Below are positions 41,089 through 48,428 of a stretch of 64,000 nucleotides of DNA, piece after piece. The DNA is from Polyangiaceae bacterium. Its GTDB lineage: Bacteria; Myxococcota_A; Polyangia; Polyangiales; Polyangiaceae. The DNA lies in contig JAQSWN010000039.1 in the NCBI GenBank assembly GCA_029266615.1, positions 1 to 64,000 of the forward strand. The letters run 5' to 3'. The stretch's first letter is position 1; each line of letters starts with the position of its first letter. The translations under genes were made by a program, and so were the position numbers. The notes beneath the pieces are model-generated. The model was not told the DNA's origin. It saw nothing but the letters and a program-made list of their open reading frames with translations, and searched no databases.

Positions 41089-43434
41089 TTACTCGGAGTG
41101 ACGCAGCTGCTCCGCAAGCTTCGCGAGGCTGCCCACCACCTCGACCAAGTTCGTCGGGTCGACCGGTTTCGACAGGTGCAGTTGGTAGCCGGTGGTAATG
41201 GCGCGCGCGTGATCTTCCGAGCGCGCGTAGGCGGTGAGCGCGGCGGCCGGAATTCCACGGACGTGCAGCGCCGGGTGTTCCCGCACGGCGCGCATGAGCG
41301 CGTAGCCATCTTGCCCCGGCATGCCAATGTCCGAGACGAGGACGTCGAAGCGCTGAACCGACAGGAGCTCGAGCGCGGACTCGGTCGACGCAGTCGTGAC
41401 CACGAGCGCGCCGACTTCAGTCAAAATGGTTGCGATGAGCTCGCGCGCGTCCGGTTCGTCGTCGACCACCAGCACGTTCAAGCCGGAAAGCTGGGTCAAC
41501 GAGCGGGCGGTAGGGGTGGTGCGAGGCCGGCTTGGCTGCGCCGCGTCGCTTCGTGTCCCGTCGGCGCCGAGGGGGAGCCGCACCACGAATGTCGCGCCGC
41601 GCCCCTCACCATCACTGAAGGCGGCGATGCTGCCCCCGTGCAGCTCGACCAGATGGCGCGAGATGCTCAGTCCCAAGCCGAGGCCGCCAAAGGCGCGCGT
41701 GATGCTCGAGTCGGCCTGGCGGAAGCTTTCGAACACGAACGGCAAGGCCGCCGCTGGAATGCCCGGGCCGTCGTCCGAGACGCGCAGCACCGTCTCCGCC
41801 GTGTCTTGCTCGAGCGAAAGGTCGACGTTGCCCCCTTGAGGCGTGAATTTTACGGCGTTCGACAACAGGTTCCAGACCACTTGCTGCACGCGGTGCGCGT
41901 CGCCGAACGTGGGCTCGACGTGGGCGGGCATGATCAGGCGAAGGCTCATTCGCTTGCTCTCCAGCGCCGGGCGCACGGTGTCGACCGCCGCCTCGACCGC
42001 GCTCTTGATGTCGTACGGCGCCACCTCCAAGTTGAGCTTGCCGCTCACGATGCGCGAAATGTCCAGGAGCTCTTCGATGAGCTGCGCTTGGGCGAGCGCG
42101 TTGCGCTCGATGACGTCCAGCGCTCGCTCGCGCCGCGCGGCGTCTAAAGTTCCGGCTTTGAGCAGCCGGCCCCAGCCGAGCATGGCGTTCAGCGGCGTTC
42201 GGAGCTCGTGCGAGACCATGGCCAAGAACTGATCCTTGCTCAGGTTGGCGGCTTCGGCTTCGGCCCGTGCGCGGCGCTCGCTCTCGAGGAGGCGGTCGCG
42301 CTCGGCCTCGGTTGCGCGGCGCCCGGTCACATCCAAGATCCACGCGACGCCGCTGTCTCGTGACCCTTCCCAGAAGGCGACCCCGAGCAAGATCGGAACC
42401 CGACGCCCGTCCTTCGCAAAGTACTCTTTCTCGAACGGCGTGCAGATGCCGGCGACGTCCATCTCTGCGAACGCGCGCTCGTCCAACCAGGCGAACTCGG
42501 GCGGAGTCATGTCCTTCCAGCGCACTTGCCCGCTCGAGAGCTCTTCGCGCGTGTACCCGACCATGCGCAGGAACGCGTCGTTGGCGTCCACCAAGCGACC
42601 GTCACGCGTCCAGAATATGACGCCAATCACGCCGGAATCAGACAGCCGCCTGGCCCGGGCCTCGCTCTCGGCAAGCTGACGCGCCAGTTCCTGAAGGCGT
42701 AGGGTCGCGCGCACCTCTTCGGTCACGTCGTAGGCGAACGCCATCACTCGGTCGAGCTCCCCACGCGGCCCCCGTAGCGGCTGATACACCCCGTTGAGGA
42801 ACATTTCTCGAGGACCGTCCGGAGCTTCGACCACGACCCGAACCTGATTGCCCACGAAGGGCTCACCGGTTTCACGGACGCGCTCGAGCAGCGACAAGTA
42901 GCCTTGCGCCGCGAGCTCTGGCAGCACCTCCGCGACGCGCTTGCCGAGCAACGGCCCGCGTCCGCCCAAAGCGTCGTTCTGGGCGTTCGATAGCTCGTAC
43001 ACCCACTCGGGGGCGCGCACCACCGCCACGGCGGCCGGGAGGCTCTCCAGCAGCTCGGCGCGCTCGCTCTCCAATGCGAGCGCACGCTGCTCCGCGCGCT
43101 TCTGTGCGGTGATGTCGTGAGCGACGACGCACACGCCCGATTCGTGAGGGTAGAAGCGGTTGTCGAACCAGCTGTCCCAAGGCTCGTAGTAGTGCTCCTG
43201 TTGAACCTTGGTGCGACTCTCCAACGCTCGGCGCAGCGCCCGCGAGAAGTCGTTGTCACGCGCTTCGGGATAAACCTCCCACAGGGAGCGGCCGCGCACG
43301 GCCTCCATGCTGGTTCCCATGCGCGCGAGCAGGCGAGGGTTGGCGTAGACGAAGCGCGCCTCGCGGTCGTAGATCGCGATGCTCTGCTCCATCTGCTCGA
43401 AGAAGGGGCGCTCGGGGAAGTCGAAGTGAGACAA
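41089..43434 (-). CDS. PAS hybrid histidine kinase (PAS repeats-HisKA-HATPase-REC)
   Basis: FLAMVSHELRTPLNAMLGWGRLL; NLLSNAVKFTPQGG; LNVLVVDDEPDARELIATILTEVG. Confidence 0.95.
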   Translation of the reverse strand: MSHFDFPERPFFEQMEQSIAIYDREARFVYANPRLLARMGTSMEAVRGRSLWEVYPEARDNDFSRALRRALESRTKVQQEHYYEPWDSWFDNRFYPHESGVCVVAHDITAQKRAEQRALALESERAELLESLPAAVAVVRAPEWVYELSNAQNDALGGRGPLLGKRVAEVLPELAAQGYLSLLERVRETGEPFVGNQVRVVVEAPDGPREMFLNGVYQPLRGPRGELDRVMAFAYDVTEEVRATLRLQELARQLAESEARARRLSDSGVIGVIFWTRDGRLVDANDAFLRMVGYTREELSSGQVRWKDMTPPEFAWLDERAFAEMDVAGICTPFEKEYFAKDGRRVPILLGVAFWEGSRDSGVAWILDVTGRRATEAERDRLLESERRARAEAEAANLSKDQFLAMVSHELRTPLNAMLGWGRLLKAGTLDAARRERALDVIERNALAQAQLIEELLDISRIVSGKLNLEVAPYDIKSAVEAAVDTVRPALESKRMSLRLIMPAHVEPTFGDAHRVQQVVWNLLSNAVKFTPQGGNVDLSLEQDTAETVLRVSDDGPGIPAAALPFVFESFRQADSSITRAFGGLGLGLSISRHLVELHGGSIAAFSDGEGRGATFVVRLPLGADGTRSDAAQPSRPRTTPTARSLTQLSGLNVLVVDDEPDARELIATILTEVGALVVTTASTESALELLSVQRFDVLVSDIGMPGQDGYALMRAVREHPALHVRGIPAAALTAYARSEDHARAITTGYQLHLSKPVDPTNLVEVVGSLAKLAEQLRHSE

Positions 43435-43596: not shown

Positions 43597-45588
43597 ATGA
43601 GTGCAGAGCGCCTGGCTCAAAGTTTGAGCCGCGAGGTTTGGCTGGTTTGCTCGGAAGACGGGGTCTGCTCCTTCGCCGACCCCCGCGCCCAGAACACGCT
43701 GGGTCTCCGCGCGGGCCAACGCCTGGAGGAGTGCACCGACCCGGGCAGCCACAGCAAACTGACGGCGCTCCTGCAGAAGACCGCCCAAGGAGCAGTGCAC
43801 GGCTGGGAGCTGTGCTTGATGGCCCACGGTGAGCCGCACACGTTCTTGTTCAGCGCCGAGCGCGGGCCCGAGGGTATCGTGCTCGTCGGTAGCCGAAGCA
43901 CGCAGGCGCAGACGGACGCGGTGCAATCCTACCAAAGAGCGATGTCCGACCTGAGTGAGATGCACCGCGAAACGGCGCGGCAAAAGGTCGACCTCGCGCG
44001 CCTCAATACGGAGCTCAACGAATCCATCGAGGGGCTCAAGACCTTACACGACGAGCTGGACGAAAAGAACGACACGCTGCGCCGCTCGGCGGACGTCAAG
44101 GCTCGTCTCGTCGCCAACGTGAGCCACGAGTTTCGCACGCCCATCAACTCCATCTTGGGCCTCGCCCGGCTGCTCTTGGACCGGGTGGATGGTGACCTGA
44201 CGGACGAGCAGGCCGTACAGGTCGGGTTCATCCGCACCAGCGCGGAAACGCTGCGGGCCCTGGTGGACGACGTGCTGGATCTCTCGAAGATCGAAGCCGG
44301 AAAGATACCCCTACGGCCGCGCCCCTTTGCGGTTCACGACGTGCTGAGCGGGCTACGCGGAACCATGCGCGCTTTCCCCCACGGCGAAGACGTGCAGCTG
44401 ATCGTGGACGAAGCGCCGGGCCTAGAGATGGTCAGTGATGACGGTAAGATCGCGCAGATTCTGCGTAATCTCGTGTCCAACGCGCTCAAGTTCACGGAGC
44501 ACGGGACCGTACGCGTCACCGCGGAGGCCCTTCCGAACGAGAGCGTGGTGTTCCGAGTCACCGACACCGGCTTGGGCATCGACCCGCGCTTCCACGAGAC
44601 CATCTTCGAAGACTTCGCGCAGATCGACAGCGAGGTGCAACGGCGCGTGAAGGGTACCGGCCTCGGCCTGTCGGTCTCACGACGCTTGGCGTCGTTGCTC
44701 GGCGGCTCGCTCACGGTGACGAGCGAGCTCGGCGAGGGCTCCTCCTTCACGTTGACCGTACCGCGCGAGCACCTCGAGGCGTCGCAGATGCGCGCGCTCG
44801 AGGAGCGTAGCCGGGTTTTGGACCCGCGGCGCGCCCCCGTGCTCGTCGTGGAAGACGACCGCCAGACGATGTTCCTGTACGAAAAATACCTGAGCCAAGC
44901 CGGTTTCCAGGTGATTCCAGCGCGCAGCGCGGACGAGGCCCGGCTCGCCATCGCGAGGGTCAAACCCGCCGCGGTCGTGCTCGACGTCATGCTCGAGGGT
45001 GAAAGCACCTGGCGCTTCTTGCAGGAGCTGAAAGAGGACGAAGCGACACGGGACATCCCAGTGATGGTGGTCACGGTCGTGGACAGCTCACAGAAAGCTC
45101 GCGCGCTGGGCGCGGACGAGTTCTGGCTCAAGCCCATCGACCCGGAGCGGCTGCGCCGGAAGATGACCGAGCTCGCGCGGCGCGGACCGGTTTCCCTATT
45201 GGTGGTGGACGACGATCCCACCTCGCGTTACCTGCTGCGTCGGTTGATGGACGACACACCCTACGTGCTGCACGAGGCGACCACCGCGGCCGAGGCGATC
45301 GTTGCCGCCCGCGAGTTAGCCCCGCAGGTCATCCTTCTGGATTTCGTGCTCGGCGACGGGACCGCCTTCGACGTCATCGACGAGCTCAAAGCCAACCCCG
45401 CGACGCGCGGTATCCCCATCATCATCCAAACCGCCAAGACGCTGGACAGCGTGGAGCGGGAGCGCCTCGCGCGCGACGCGAGCGCGATTCTTTCCAAGCA
45501 GAGCCTGTCACGAGAGCTCGCGATCGCCCGTGTGCGCGAAGCGCTGGAAAAGTCAGGGAGGGGGGGAGGAGTATCGCGTGTCGACTGA
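43597..45588 (+). CDS. Hybrid histidine kinase (coiled coil-HisKA-HATPase-REC-REC)
   Basis: LVANVSHEFRTPINSILGLARLLL; NLVSNALKFTEHG; APVLVVEDDRQTMFLYEKYL and SLLVVDDDPTSRYLLRRLM. Confidence 0.95.
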   Translation: MSAERLAQSLSREVWLVCSEDGVCSFADPRAQNTLGLRAGQRLEECTDPGSHSKLTALLQKTAQGAVHGWELCLMAHGEPHTFLFSAERGPEGIVLVGSRSTQAQTDAVQSYQRAMSDLSEMHRETARQKVDLARLNTELNESIEGLKTLHDELDEKNDTLRRSADVKARLVANVSHEFRTPINSILGLARLLLDRVDGDLTDEQAVQVGFIRTSAETLRALVDDVLDLSKIEAGKIPLRPRPFAVHDVLSGLRGTMRAFPHGEDVQLIVDEAPGLEMVSDDGKIAQILRNLVSNALKFTEHGTVRVTAEALPNESVVFRVTDTGLGIDPRFHETIFEDFAQIDSEVQRRVKGTGLGLSVSRRLASLLGGSLTVTSELGEGSSFTLTVPREHLEASQMRALEERSRVLDPRRAPVLVVEDDRQTMFLYEKYLSQAGFQVIPARSADEARLAIARVKPAAVVLDVMLEGESTWRFLQELKEDEATRDIPVMVVTVVDSSQKARALGADEFWLKPIDPERLRRKMTELARRGPVSLLVVDDDPTSRYLLRRLMDDTPYVLHEATTAAEAIVAARELAPQVILLDFVLGDGTAFDVIDELKANPATRGIPIIIQTAKTLDSVERERLARDASAILSKQSLSRELAIARVREALEKSGRGGGVSRVD

Positions 45589-47140
45589 GCTTCCGAGCAC
45601 AATCCGCGTGCTCAACGTCAACGATGACAGCAGCGCGCGCTACCTGGCGACGCGGGTCCTGCGCCGAGCCGGCTTCGACGTGTTCGAGGCGGAAACGGGG
45701 CACGCCGCCCTCGAGCAGGCCCGAGCCCACCAGCCGCATCTAGCAGTTCTGGACGTGCGGCTGCCGGACATCTCGGGTCTCGAGGTGTGTCGGACCCTCA
45801 AGAGCGACCCGGACACGAAGGCGATCTTGATCGTGCAAACCTCGGCTTCCTTCGTGAGCAGCGCGAACAAGGCCGAGGGCCTGAGCGCCGGGGCGGACGC
45901 CTACTTGGCCCAGCCGTTCGATCCCGAGGAGCTCGTAGCGACGCTGCACTCGCTCATCCGCGGTCGGCGCCTGGAGGCGGAGGCGCGCGAGCGGGCGGAC
46001 GCGCTCACGGTCGCCGATCAGCGCAAGGACGAGTTCTTGGCCATGCTGGCCCACGAGCTCCGCAACCCGTTGAGCGCGATCTTGACTGCGGCCAGGCTCT
46101 TGCAAACCAAGGGCCCCGAGGTCGCGCCTCGCCTCGCCACGACCATCGAGCGGCAAACGCACCACCTCGCGAGCCTGGTCGACGACTTGCTGGACATCTC
46201 CCGCATTACCCATGGAAAGATCCAGCTCAAGCTGGAGCAAGTGGACTTGCTGGAAGCCGTGCAGCGCGCGATCGAGACGGCACGCCCGCGGCTGGCGCGC
46301 AACCGCAACCAGTTGACCTTCAAGGAGTGCGAGGGCCCGCTGTTCGTGTCTGCGGATCCGGTTCGTTTGGAGCAAGTGCTCGTCAATTTGCTCACGAACG
46401 CCGCCAAGTACACGCCGGAGCAGGGCAAGGTGGAGGTCACGGTCGAGCGCGCTTCCGGCACGAAGGGCGCCGGCGTCGCCAGGGTGACCGTCAAGGACGA
46501 CGGCGTTGGTCTCTCCGAAGAAGACCGCGCCCACATCTTCGACCTCTTTTATCAAGCGGACGCTTCGCTCGCGCGCTCGCAGAGCGGGCTCGGTATCGGG
46601 CTCACCATGGTCAAGCGCCTCGTGGAGATGCACGGGGGTGAGGTCTCGGTAGCGAGCAAGGGACGGGGTCACGGAAGCGCCTTCACGGTGGAGCTGCCAG
46701 AGGTACAGGCCCGCAAGCAGAGCTCCACGCTGCCGGTCGCGGCGACGGAGCTCCGCGGGGTTCGCGTGCTCTTCGTCGACGACAATCTGGACGCGTGCGC
46801 GCTGATGCAAATGTGCCTGGAGCAAGCCGGGTGCATCGTCGTTACCGCGCACGACGGCGGTGAGGCGCTGCTGCTCGCTGGGCAACACCAGTTCGACGTC
46901 GCAGTGCTCGACATCGGCTTGCCCGTGCTGGACGGCTACCAGCTCGCGACCGCAATTTCCGAGCGCCTGGGCTCGAGGCGCCCGCCGCTCGTTGCCCTGA
47001 CTGGCTACAATCGCCCCGAAGACCGCAGCCGGGCGCGGCAAGCCGGGTTCGACGAGCACCTGGCCAAGCCGGTGTCGCCGGAAACGCTGCTGGCGACTTT
47101 GGGGGACGTGCTCCGCAACGTCCGGGTGAGGCTCGGCTGA
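45578..47140 (+). CDS. Hybrid histidine kinase (REC-HisKA-HATPase-REC)
   Basis: IRVLNVNDDSSARYLATRVLRRAGF; FLAMLAHELRNPLSAILTAARLL; NLLTNAAKYTPEQG; VRVLFVDDNLDACALMQMCL. GTG start overlapping the preceding stop. Confidence 0.94.
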   Translation: MSTELPSTIRVLNVNDDSSARYLATRVLRRAGFDVFEAETGHAALEQARAHQPHLAVLDVRLPDISGLEVCRTLKSDPDTKAILIVQTSASFVSSANKAEGLSAGADAYLAQPFDPEELVATLHSLIRGRRLEAEARERADALTVADQRKDEFLAMLAHELRNPLSAILTAARLLQTKGPEVAPRLATTIERQTHHLASLVDDLLDISRITHGKIQLKLEQVDLLEAVQRAIETARPRLARNRNQLTFKECEGPLFVSADPVRLEQVLVNLLTNAAKYTPEQGKVEVTVERASGTKGAGVARVTVKDDGVGLSEEDRAHIFDLFYQADASLARSQSGLGIGLTMVKRLVEMHGGEVSVASKGRGHGSAFTVELPEVQARKQSSTLPVAATELRGVRVLFVDDNLDACALMQMCLEQAGCIVVTAHDGGEALLLAGQHQFDVAVLDIGLPVLDGYQLATAISERLGSRRPPLVALTGYNRPEDRSRARQAGFDEHLAKPVSPETLLATLGDVLRNVRVRLG

Positions 47141-47784
47141 TGTCTCCGCTCACCGAGCGCTACGTGCGAGCGCAGCTCGCCGGTGAAAGGAGTGAAGCGC
47201 TGGCGATCGTGCACGAGGCGCTGGCTTCGGGCTTCAGCGTCCCCGCCGTGCACCTCGAGCTCATTCAGGCGGCCCAATACGAGATCGGCAGGCTGTGGGA
47301 AAACAACCTGATAAGCATCGCGGAGGAGCACCAAGCCACCGCCATCTCCCAGCTGGCCCTCGCGGTCCTGTTCGACAAGCTGCCGCGCGCCCGCCGCAAC
47401 GGTAAACGCGTGCTGCTCGCTTGCGTCGAAGGAGAGCTGCACGACATGGGCTCCCGCATCGTCGCCGACTTCCTGGAGATGGACGGCTACGAGGTGCGTC
47501 TGCTCGGAGCGAACGTGCCGGCGAAGAGCTTGGCCGAGCGGGTGACCGCCTACGCGCCGGACTTGGTCGCGCTCTCGGCGACGATGAGCTTTCACTTGAG
47601 TGCCCTGGAGCGCGCCGTCGCCGCCATCCGCGGGAGCGAGCAACGCGCGGTGCCGATTCTGGTCGGGGGGCGCGCCTTCACGTGGGCGACGGATGCGGCA
47701 ACCAAGCTGGACGTGCAGGGCTTCGCGGCGGACCCGGCCGAGCTGCTCAAGGAAGCGCGGCGACTGACGCAGGTGGCCGCATGA
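47140..47784 (+). CDS. Cobalamin (B12)-binding domain protein, CarH-type photosensory signature
   Basis: Helical cap VPAVHLELIQAAQYEIGRLWENNLISIAEEHQATAISQ (W53-x9-E63-H64) and Rossmann RVLLACVEGELHDMGSRIVADFLEMDGYEVRLLGANVPAKSLAE (ExHDxG). TGATG overlap with upstream kinase. Confidence 0.93.
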   Translation: MSPLTERYVRAQLAGERSEALAIVHEALASGFSVPAVHLELIQAAQYEIGRLWENNLISIAEEHQATAISQLALAVLFDKLPRARRNGKRVLLACVEGELHDMGSRIVADFLEMDGYEVRLLGANVPAKSLAERVTAYAPDLVALSATMSFHLSALERAVAAIRGSEQRAVPILVGGRAFTWATDAATKLDVQGFAADPAELLKEARRLTQVAA

Positions 47785-48428
47785 CCATCGAAGCCTTGTG
47801 CGCGGAGCTGGAGACGAAAATCGTCGCCCTCTCCCGGCGCTGTATCGAGGCGATGTACGAAGACCCGTTCTGGATGGCGCGCTTCGGCGAGCGCGGCCGG
47901 AAACACGCCGAAGAAGACAGCGAGTACCACGTGAAGTACATCGTGGCCGCCCTGCGTGGCAGCGACGCAGCTGTCTTCGAAAACTATGCCCGATGGCTTC
48001 GCAGCGTGCTCGCCTCCCGCGGCATGTGCTCGTGGCACCTTGCGCAGAGCTTTTGGCAACTGGCGCAAGCGATGCGCGCAGAGCAAATTGCCGAGGCCGA
48101 GCCGGCGCTCTCCGTGCTCGGCGTGGGGCGCGCTGCGCTGGACTATACCATCGGAAACGCGGCGCCGATCGCCGCCCACGCGGCCGAGCTGCGGGCGGCG
48201 GTGGGTGACGACGCGTACCGGCTCGAAGAGCTGTGGTCCTTCTTGCTGGACGCAGTGGACCGTGACGACGCTCCCGCGTTTCGCGCGCACGTGGACTTCG
48301 TGGAGCGCGCGCTGGTGCAGGACGACGCGGAGCGTTTGCGGCTCGCACGCACGCTCAGCGCGCTGCAAAGCCTCGCGGCGATGCACGCGCCGGCGGAGCT
48401 GCCCGAGCGGCTGTTCAGCGCGCAGTAG
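47781..48428 (+). CDS. Hypothetical helical protein coupled to the B12 domain protein
   Basis: MTIEALCAELETKIVALSRRCIEAMYEDPFWMARFGERGRKHAEEDSEYHVKYIVAALRGSD...; ATGA overlap with upstream gene; 215 aa. Confidence 0.75.
   Translation: MTIEALCAELETKIVALSRRCIEAMYEDPFWMARFGERGRKHAEEDSEYHVKYIVAALRGSDAAVFENYARWLRSVLASRGMCSWHLAQSFWQLAQAMRAEQIAEAEPALSVLGVGRAALDYTIGNAAPIAAHAAELRAAVGDDAYRLEELWSFLLDAVDRDDAPAFRAHVDFVERALVQDDAERLRLARTLSALQSLAAMHAPAELPERLFSAQ

Follow-up and report, generated by a model that had tools for sequence, protein, structure and literature searches.

Four overlapping forward-strand genes, g1 to g4, lie in a window of 64,000 nucleotides (the whole stretch of DNA that was analysed) from a Polyangiaceae bacterium, a soil myxobacterium. 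We conclude that they probably form an operon for a photocobilin-type photoreceptor, the two chromophore domains of which are made as separate proteins and wired to a two-kinase phosphorelay. g1 and g2 are hybrid histidine kinases, g3 is a cobalamin-binding protein most closely related to photocobilins, and g4 is placed by profile searches among the biliverdin-binding globins of the photoglobin/BBAG-2 family. A first-pass annotation had called the system “B12-dependent”; a B12 protein is indeed part of the set, but two chromophores are most likely at work in the sensor, the second one, judged from the family of g4, being biliverdin.

A four-gene overlapping operon

Positions refer to the window, and residues of g2 are counted from the GTG at 45578. 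The genes are as follows:

43597-45588, + strand: g1, hybrid histidine kinase of 663 residues; N-terminal region 1-165 without a Pfam match, then HisKA (H177), HATPase_c, REC and REC (Pfam)
45578-47140, + strand: g2, hybrid histidine kinase of 520 residues; REC, HisKA (H159), HATPase_c and REC (Pfam; start and ribosome-binding site from the sequence)
47140-47784, + strand: g3, stand-alone cobalamin-binding protein of 214 residues; four-helix cap and Rossmann fold of photocobilin/CarH type (Pfam, PDB sequence search, AlphaFold2 and Foldseek)
47781-48428, + strand: g4, putative photoglobin/BBAG-2-type bilin globin of 215 residues; globin domain 1-135 and a shorter, degenerate second globin-like repeat (profile searches, AlphaFold2 and fold search)

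g2 starts at the GTG at 45578, which is preceded by GGAGGA, and overlaps g1 by 11 nucleotides (GTG 45578/TGA 45586). The g2/g3 overlap is TGATG at 47138-47142 and the g3/g4 overlap is ATGA at 47781-47784. Thus, the chain of four genes overlapping at 45578, 47140 and 47781 described in the first-pass annotation is borne out by the sequence. So is its identification of two hybrid kinases: Pfam places a HisKA domain with its phospho-accepting histidine (H177 in g1, H159 in g2), HATPase_c and REC in each protein. The first receiver domain of g2 has a glutamine in place of the usual conserved lysine (YLAQPFD), and its normal phosphorylation may fail.

g3 is closer to photocobilins than to CarH

Pfam detects B12-binding_2 and B12-binding in g3 and nothing else, with no MerR/helix-turn-helix domain, in agreement with the earlier reading of the third gene as a B12 helical cap plus Rossmann fold only. 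Light-responsive cobalamin domains carry a signature made of GxxW, EH, GxxH and GxxxP motifs (PMC11796333). All four are present in g3, where they can be aligned with the photocobilin SasPcob (numbering offset of 6, verified at three landmarks) and with CarH:

47287-47298, + strand: GxxW motif, G50-W53; W53 corresponds to SasPcob Trp61 and CarH W131
47326-47331, + strand: E63-H64, the dimer/adenosyl-pocket motif; corresponds to SasPcob Glu71-His72 and CarH E141-H142
47431-47442, + strand: GxxH motif, G98-H101; H101 is the predicted lower axial cobalt ligand and corresponds to SasPcob His108
47506-47520, + strand: GxxxP motif, G123-P127, the final element of the published signature

G50, W53, E63, H64, G98, H101, G123 and P127 never vary among 14 orthologues that are about 50% identical, and the motifs are therefore not a chance occurrence. 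The W53-x9-E63-H64 and E99-L-H101-D-M-G104 patterns are exactly as first annotated.

In the PDB, the best sequence matches to g3 are SasPcob (8j2w/8j2x, 1e-27), followed by a Chloracidobacterium MerR-type B12 protein (8jbs) and the photocobilin AbDPcob (8j2y, 4e-22), while CarH comes well below SasPcob, at about 1e-7. The fold agrees: the AlphaFold2 model (predicted local distance difference test score, pLDDT, 90.1) has 8j2w as its best Foldseek match, with a template modelling (TM) score of 0.85. The position of CarH His132, immediately after W53, is Glu54 in g3 and E or Q in 14/14 orthologues, and the bis-His light state of CarH is therefore not expected. SasPcob also lacks that state, its end product being a water/hydroxide-ligated cobalamin (PMC10979010). 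The label “CarH-like” given earlier is thus right as to the signature motifs, but the closest relative by sequence and fold is a photocobilin. Altogether, the assignment of g3 as a B12 domain of the adenosylcobalamin (AdoCbl) photoreceptor type, without a DNA-binding domain, is supported at the level of sequence.

We also considered whether g3 is a corrinoid methyl-carrier of the MtaC/MtbC/MtgC kind, with the kinases as chance neighbours. NCBIfam methyltransferase corrinoid models do match g3, all of them far below their curated cut-offs (66 bits against 215), and g3 has ExHxxG with W-x9-EH instead of DxHxxG. As no cluster contains a methyltransferase gene and the neighbourhood is conserved across families, this reading was rejected and retains next to no probability. 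A MetH reading was likewise rejected.

g4 is a putative biliverdin globin

Searches of Pfam, NCBIfam and the PDB with the single g4 sequence returned nothing usable. A profile of seven relatives, by contrast, matched the SasPcob globin domain (6e-6), that of AbDPcob (4e-4) and then many phycobiliproteins. When 18 full-length orthologues were made into a profile, the same photocobilin globin domain was matched by the second half of g4 (9e-5), indicating that g4 consists of one full globin domain and a degenerate second globin-like repeat. The top fold matches of the AlphaFold2 model (pLDDT 95.6, predicted TM score 0.90), at a probability of 1.00, are the globin of SasPcob and phycobiliproteins, among them smURFP in complex with biliverdin. 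The relevant features are:

47916-47918, + strand: D46, corresponding to SasPcob Asp270 (HMMER alignment)
47994-47996, + strand: W72, corresponding to SasPcob Trp296 (HMMER alignment)
48018-48029, + strand: RGMC motif, R80-G81-M82-C83, diagnostic of BBAG-2 globins (invariant, 18/18)
48198-48425, + strand: second, degenerate globin-like repeat (second profile match to photocobilin globin; repeated g4-domain matches in orthologues)

In SasPcob, Asp270 touches biliverdin rings A-C, and Trp296 touches the D ring and the corrin (PMC10979010); D46 and W72 are kept in every globin match that covers those columns. H50 and H86 are also invariant. The RGMC motif has been reported for BBAG-2 globins, two of which bound biliverdin upon co-expression; in Myxococcales, globins of this clade always come with a B12-binding protein, and their genomes have a heme oxygenase (PMC10151467). 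Here, too, a B12-binding gene (g3) is adjacent and a heme oxygenase is present in the genome. A link to a pre-2 bilin reductase, the strict mark of BBAG-2, is lacking, which fits the published “Myxococcales globins not associated with pre-2”. The g3/g4 pair thus belongs among the BBAG-2/B12-binding-protein pairs of Myxococcales. The fourth product, earlier described as a “helical partner”, is helical, but its identity as a photoglobin/BBAG-2-type globin had been missed.

The globin superfamily also includes RsbR, and the invariant H50 and H86 would suit an RsbR-type oxygen/heme or stress sensor with a ligand other than biliverdin, in which case the kinases would sense redox with B12 as a co-signal. 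We regard this as very improbable: the RGMC globins assayed bind biliverdin (PMC10151467), the biliverdin-contacting Asp and Trp are universal, and globins of this type are fused to, or share operons with, heme oxygenase, an enzyme that makes biliverdin by breaking down heme.

g3 and g4 resemble a photocobilin split in two

Among solved structures, SasPcob, a fused B12 and biliverdin photoreceptor, comes nearest to g3 and also to g4, and for this reason the two genes look like a photocobilin split in two. In several relatives (L033-L038, L044, L045) a g4-type globin and a B12 domain are a single polypeptide. Such a fusion is also found in Azospirillum, and in A. thermophilum it adjoins a sensor kinase gene: on a plasmid (L105, 4578-5639) the fused globin-B12 protein is followed downstream by a HAMP sensor kinase gene, a photocobilin-kinase pairing outside the myxobacteria and in a genus with genetic tools. 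An apparent g3-g4 fusion in Nannocystis pusilla Na p29 (L051, 8011-9702) was discarded, as a frameshift shortly before the B12 gene ends, either a sequencing error or a recent mutation, merges two open reading frames. N-terminal extensions of the B12 proteins (110 residues in Nannocystis, 288 in Archangium) overlap another gene or have no similarity, and were dismissed as upstream-start artefacts.

As for the chromophores, six Nannocystis loci, Labilithrix and one same-genus genome have a heme oxygenase gene immediately next to the B12/globin pair, and in L028, L049 and L053 g4 and g1 are separated by the gene for a ferredoxin-dependent bilin reductase (PF05996). No PF05996 reductase was found in the host assembly. 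The host genome encodes a single heme oxygenase (G000:C35:3737-4333) as well as a cobalamin adenosyltransferase, so that the cell should have both biliverdin and AdoCbl at its disposal. The heme oxygenase gene overlaps that of a bacteriophytochrome hybrid kinase next to it (L082, 549-4333), a bphO-bphP operon and second light input.

Heme oxygenases with a C-terminally fused g4-type globin were also encountered (L066 8317-9588, L071 8218-9549, L068-L070, L072-L074, L076-L080 and L042), in Desulfobacterota, Bacteroidales, Verrucomicrobia, Chloroflexi and beta-proteobacteria. They have RGMP instead of RGMC, keep the Asp and Trp, and adjoin a B12-domain gene and kinase genes in several loci; a biliverdin-making enzyme is here joined to a likely biliverdin globin.

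The kinase pair belongs to the B12/globin system

A genome scan yielded 18 loci with an RGMC globin, 14 of them in Myxococcota. In 13 of these 14, the B12 gene, g1 and g2 lie within about 5 kb of the globin; in the remaining one (L059), g3-g1-g2 is on another contig (L104). Four arrangements occur: g1-g2-g3-g4, g3-g4-g1-g2, g3-g4-reductase-g1-g2 and, in Nannocystis, g3-g4 divergent from g1-g2. The first-pass annotation had coupled an AdoCbl-photoreceptor-type B12 domain to two hybrid kinases and asked whether this synteny is limited to one genome. The coupling recurs, the set being found in Polyangiaceae, Myxococcaceae, Archangium and Nannocystis, and its conservation across myxobacterial families argues that it is under selection. 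When the clusters were compared all against all for a conserved output regulator, none emerged; the recurring genes were g1, g2, g3, g4 and that for heme oxygenase. Divergent from g1 is a gene for a PAS-rich hybrid kinase (41089-43434, - strand), a position retained only in the same-genus genome L048.

Myxobacteria are rich in kinases, so that kinase neighbours are frequent, and g1 and g2 could be ordinary co-transcribed kinases that do not take the signal of a g3/g4 photoreceptor. This is improbable, because only this orthologous pair recurs. The g2 orthologue adjoins g1 in every cluster inspected, non-cluster kinases match g1 far less well than its true orthologue (3e-39 against zero for that of L048), and g1 and g2 track g3 even where g4 is elsewhere and are kept in Nannocystis despite the divergent orientation. 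Moreover, the N-terminal region of g1 (1-158) is system-specific: of the 184 genomes of the order, 13 have it, each as a single copy, and these 13 include all seven RGMC-globin genomes of the set (hypergeometric chance about 1e-9, ignoring shared ancestry). The kinases g1 and g2 thus belong to the B12/globin system.

In 11 of the 13 genomes this region lies beside g3, and six of these have g4 adjacent as well. Other observations weigh against a light-sensing g3/g4 unit that drives these kinases. Firstly, five of the 13 have g3-g1-g2 without an adjacent globin, and g4 may be a dispensable modulator. Secondly, in the last two no B12 gene adjoins g1-g2, and the B12-globin pair is located in another place. 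Thirdly, the Foldseek E-values of g4 are weak (about 0.25) despite the probability of 1.00, which leaves the sequence profile to carry the weight. Finally, the BBAG-2 globins assayed on their own were photoinert (PMC10151467); any biliverdin role of g4 would therefore depend on its B12 partner.

As g3-g1-g2 occurs without an adjacent g4, and g4 of this clade hardly without g3, the core would be the B12 protein with the kinases, to which the globin may add a wider spectrum or a tuning of the switch. In L098-L101 (G148, G149, G150 and G152), a g3-g1-g2 operon without an adjacent globin represents the minimal unit of B12 protein and kinases.

The same five genomes are compatible with another explanation, in which g3 reports the availability of AdoCbl or the ratio of cobalamin forms instead of light, photolysis being incidental and g4 structural or a bilin/heme sensor. 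AdoCbl binding alone drives the assembly of CarH-type proteins, and we give this explanation a minor though real chance. Against it, the W-x9-EH pocket is the light-responsive signature, and the conserved pairing of g3 with a bilin globin and with heme oxygenase/bilin reductase genes suits light, not B12 titration.

Discussion

The photoreceptor-phosphorelay reading that we prefer is modelled on SasPcob, in which the Co-C bond is cleaved, and the dimer falls apart, upon excitation of either AdoCbl or biliverdin (PMC10979010). g3 would bind AdoCbl with H101 as lower ligand, the adenosyl group under W53 and E63-H64 at the dimer interface. g4 would bind biliverdin made by heme oxygenase and sit against the edge of the corrin in g3, in the position that the globin domain occupies in SasPcob. 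The Co-C bond would be broken in green light through absorption by AdoCbl itself, or in red light through absorption by biliverdin and transfer to AdoCbl, and g3, alone or together with g4, would change its oligomeric state. The dedicated N-terminal region of g1 may in turn convey this change to the activity of that kinase, with g2 downstream, and phosphoryl groups would travel through the receiver domains of both kinases to an output regulator encoded elsewhere. By analogy with SasPcob photochemistry, g3 would be the light-gated switch, g1 would receive its conformational or oligomeric change, and g4 would act as an antenna for red light and also shield the edge of the corrin. A more specific version, which we put forward tentatively and hold to be somewhat less probable than not, is a photoreceptor of two subunits, g3 and g4, whose assembly or disassembly is driven by light and gates the dedicated phosphorelay; BBAG-2 globins would then act as red-light antennae for B12 photochemistry feeding two-component signalling in non-photosynthetic bacteria.

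Globins with B12 domains, as in photoglobin, have reportedly been predicted to form a light-sensing bundle tied to signalling domains. This combination (Schneider et al. 2022) is like that of g3 and g4. CarH/LitR of Thermus and Myxococcus has a B12 pocket of W131, E141, H142 and H177 with equivalents in g3; unlike CarH/LitR, g3 is devoid of a MerR DNA-binding domain and has Glu54 at His132, and CarH ranks below photocobilin in both fold and sequence. AerR of Rhodobacter acts on the repressor CrtJ. Like g3, AerR (PDB 7te2) is a stand-alone B12 protein without a DNA-binding domain, although its sequence match to g3 is weak (7e-4).

The photocobilins SasPcob and AbDPcob (PMC10979010; PDB 8j2w, 8j2x, 8j2y) combine a CarH-like B12 domain with a biliverdin-binding globin, as g3 and g4 appear to do, and SasPcob W61, E71-H72, H108, Asp270 and Trp296 all have counterparts in the pair. 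Known photocobilins are, however, single chains, alone or fused to a diguanylate cyclase, whereas here there are two genes overlapping by ATGA, an RGMC-type globin, a second degenerate repeat and two hybrid kinases. With its B12 and globin domains on two polypeptides, the pair is not filed as a photocobilin proper and may rather be said to work like one. BBAG-2 (Rockwell et al. 2023, PMC10151467) offers the same RGMC globin beside a B12-binding protein in Myxococcales; its bilin reductase is found in some relatives of the operon, not in this genome. The main text of that paper calls the function of BBAG-2 unknown and names no kinases.

Photocobilins, BBAG-2/B12 pairs in Myxococcales and hybrid kinases are thus already known. 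Literature searches gave no direct description of B12-domain/kinase pairs. They also returned none of the split B12/bilin form with a degenerate second globin repeat and a dedicated hybrid kinase pair, in a literature that did not include Schneider et al. 2022, which may list such neighbourhoods. Only stand-alone and diguanylate cyclase photocobilins have been characterised so far, and the operon adds the hypothesis of a split photocobilin that controls a phosphorelay. A two-component photocobilin, if real, would be a natural light-controlled protein pair, responsive from green to red and useful for optogenetics. For the organism, the operon suggests a second light input besides the phytochrome of the same genome, and for the family, the conserved gene set suggests a job for BBAG-2, a bilin globin of hitherto unknown function.

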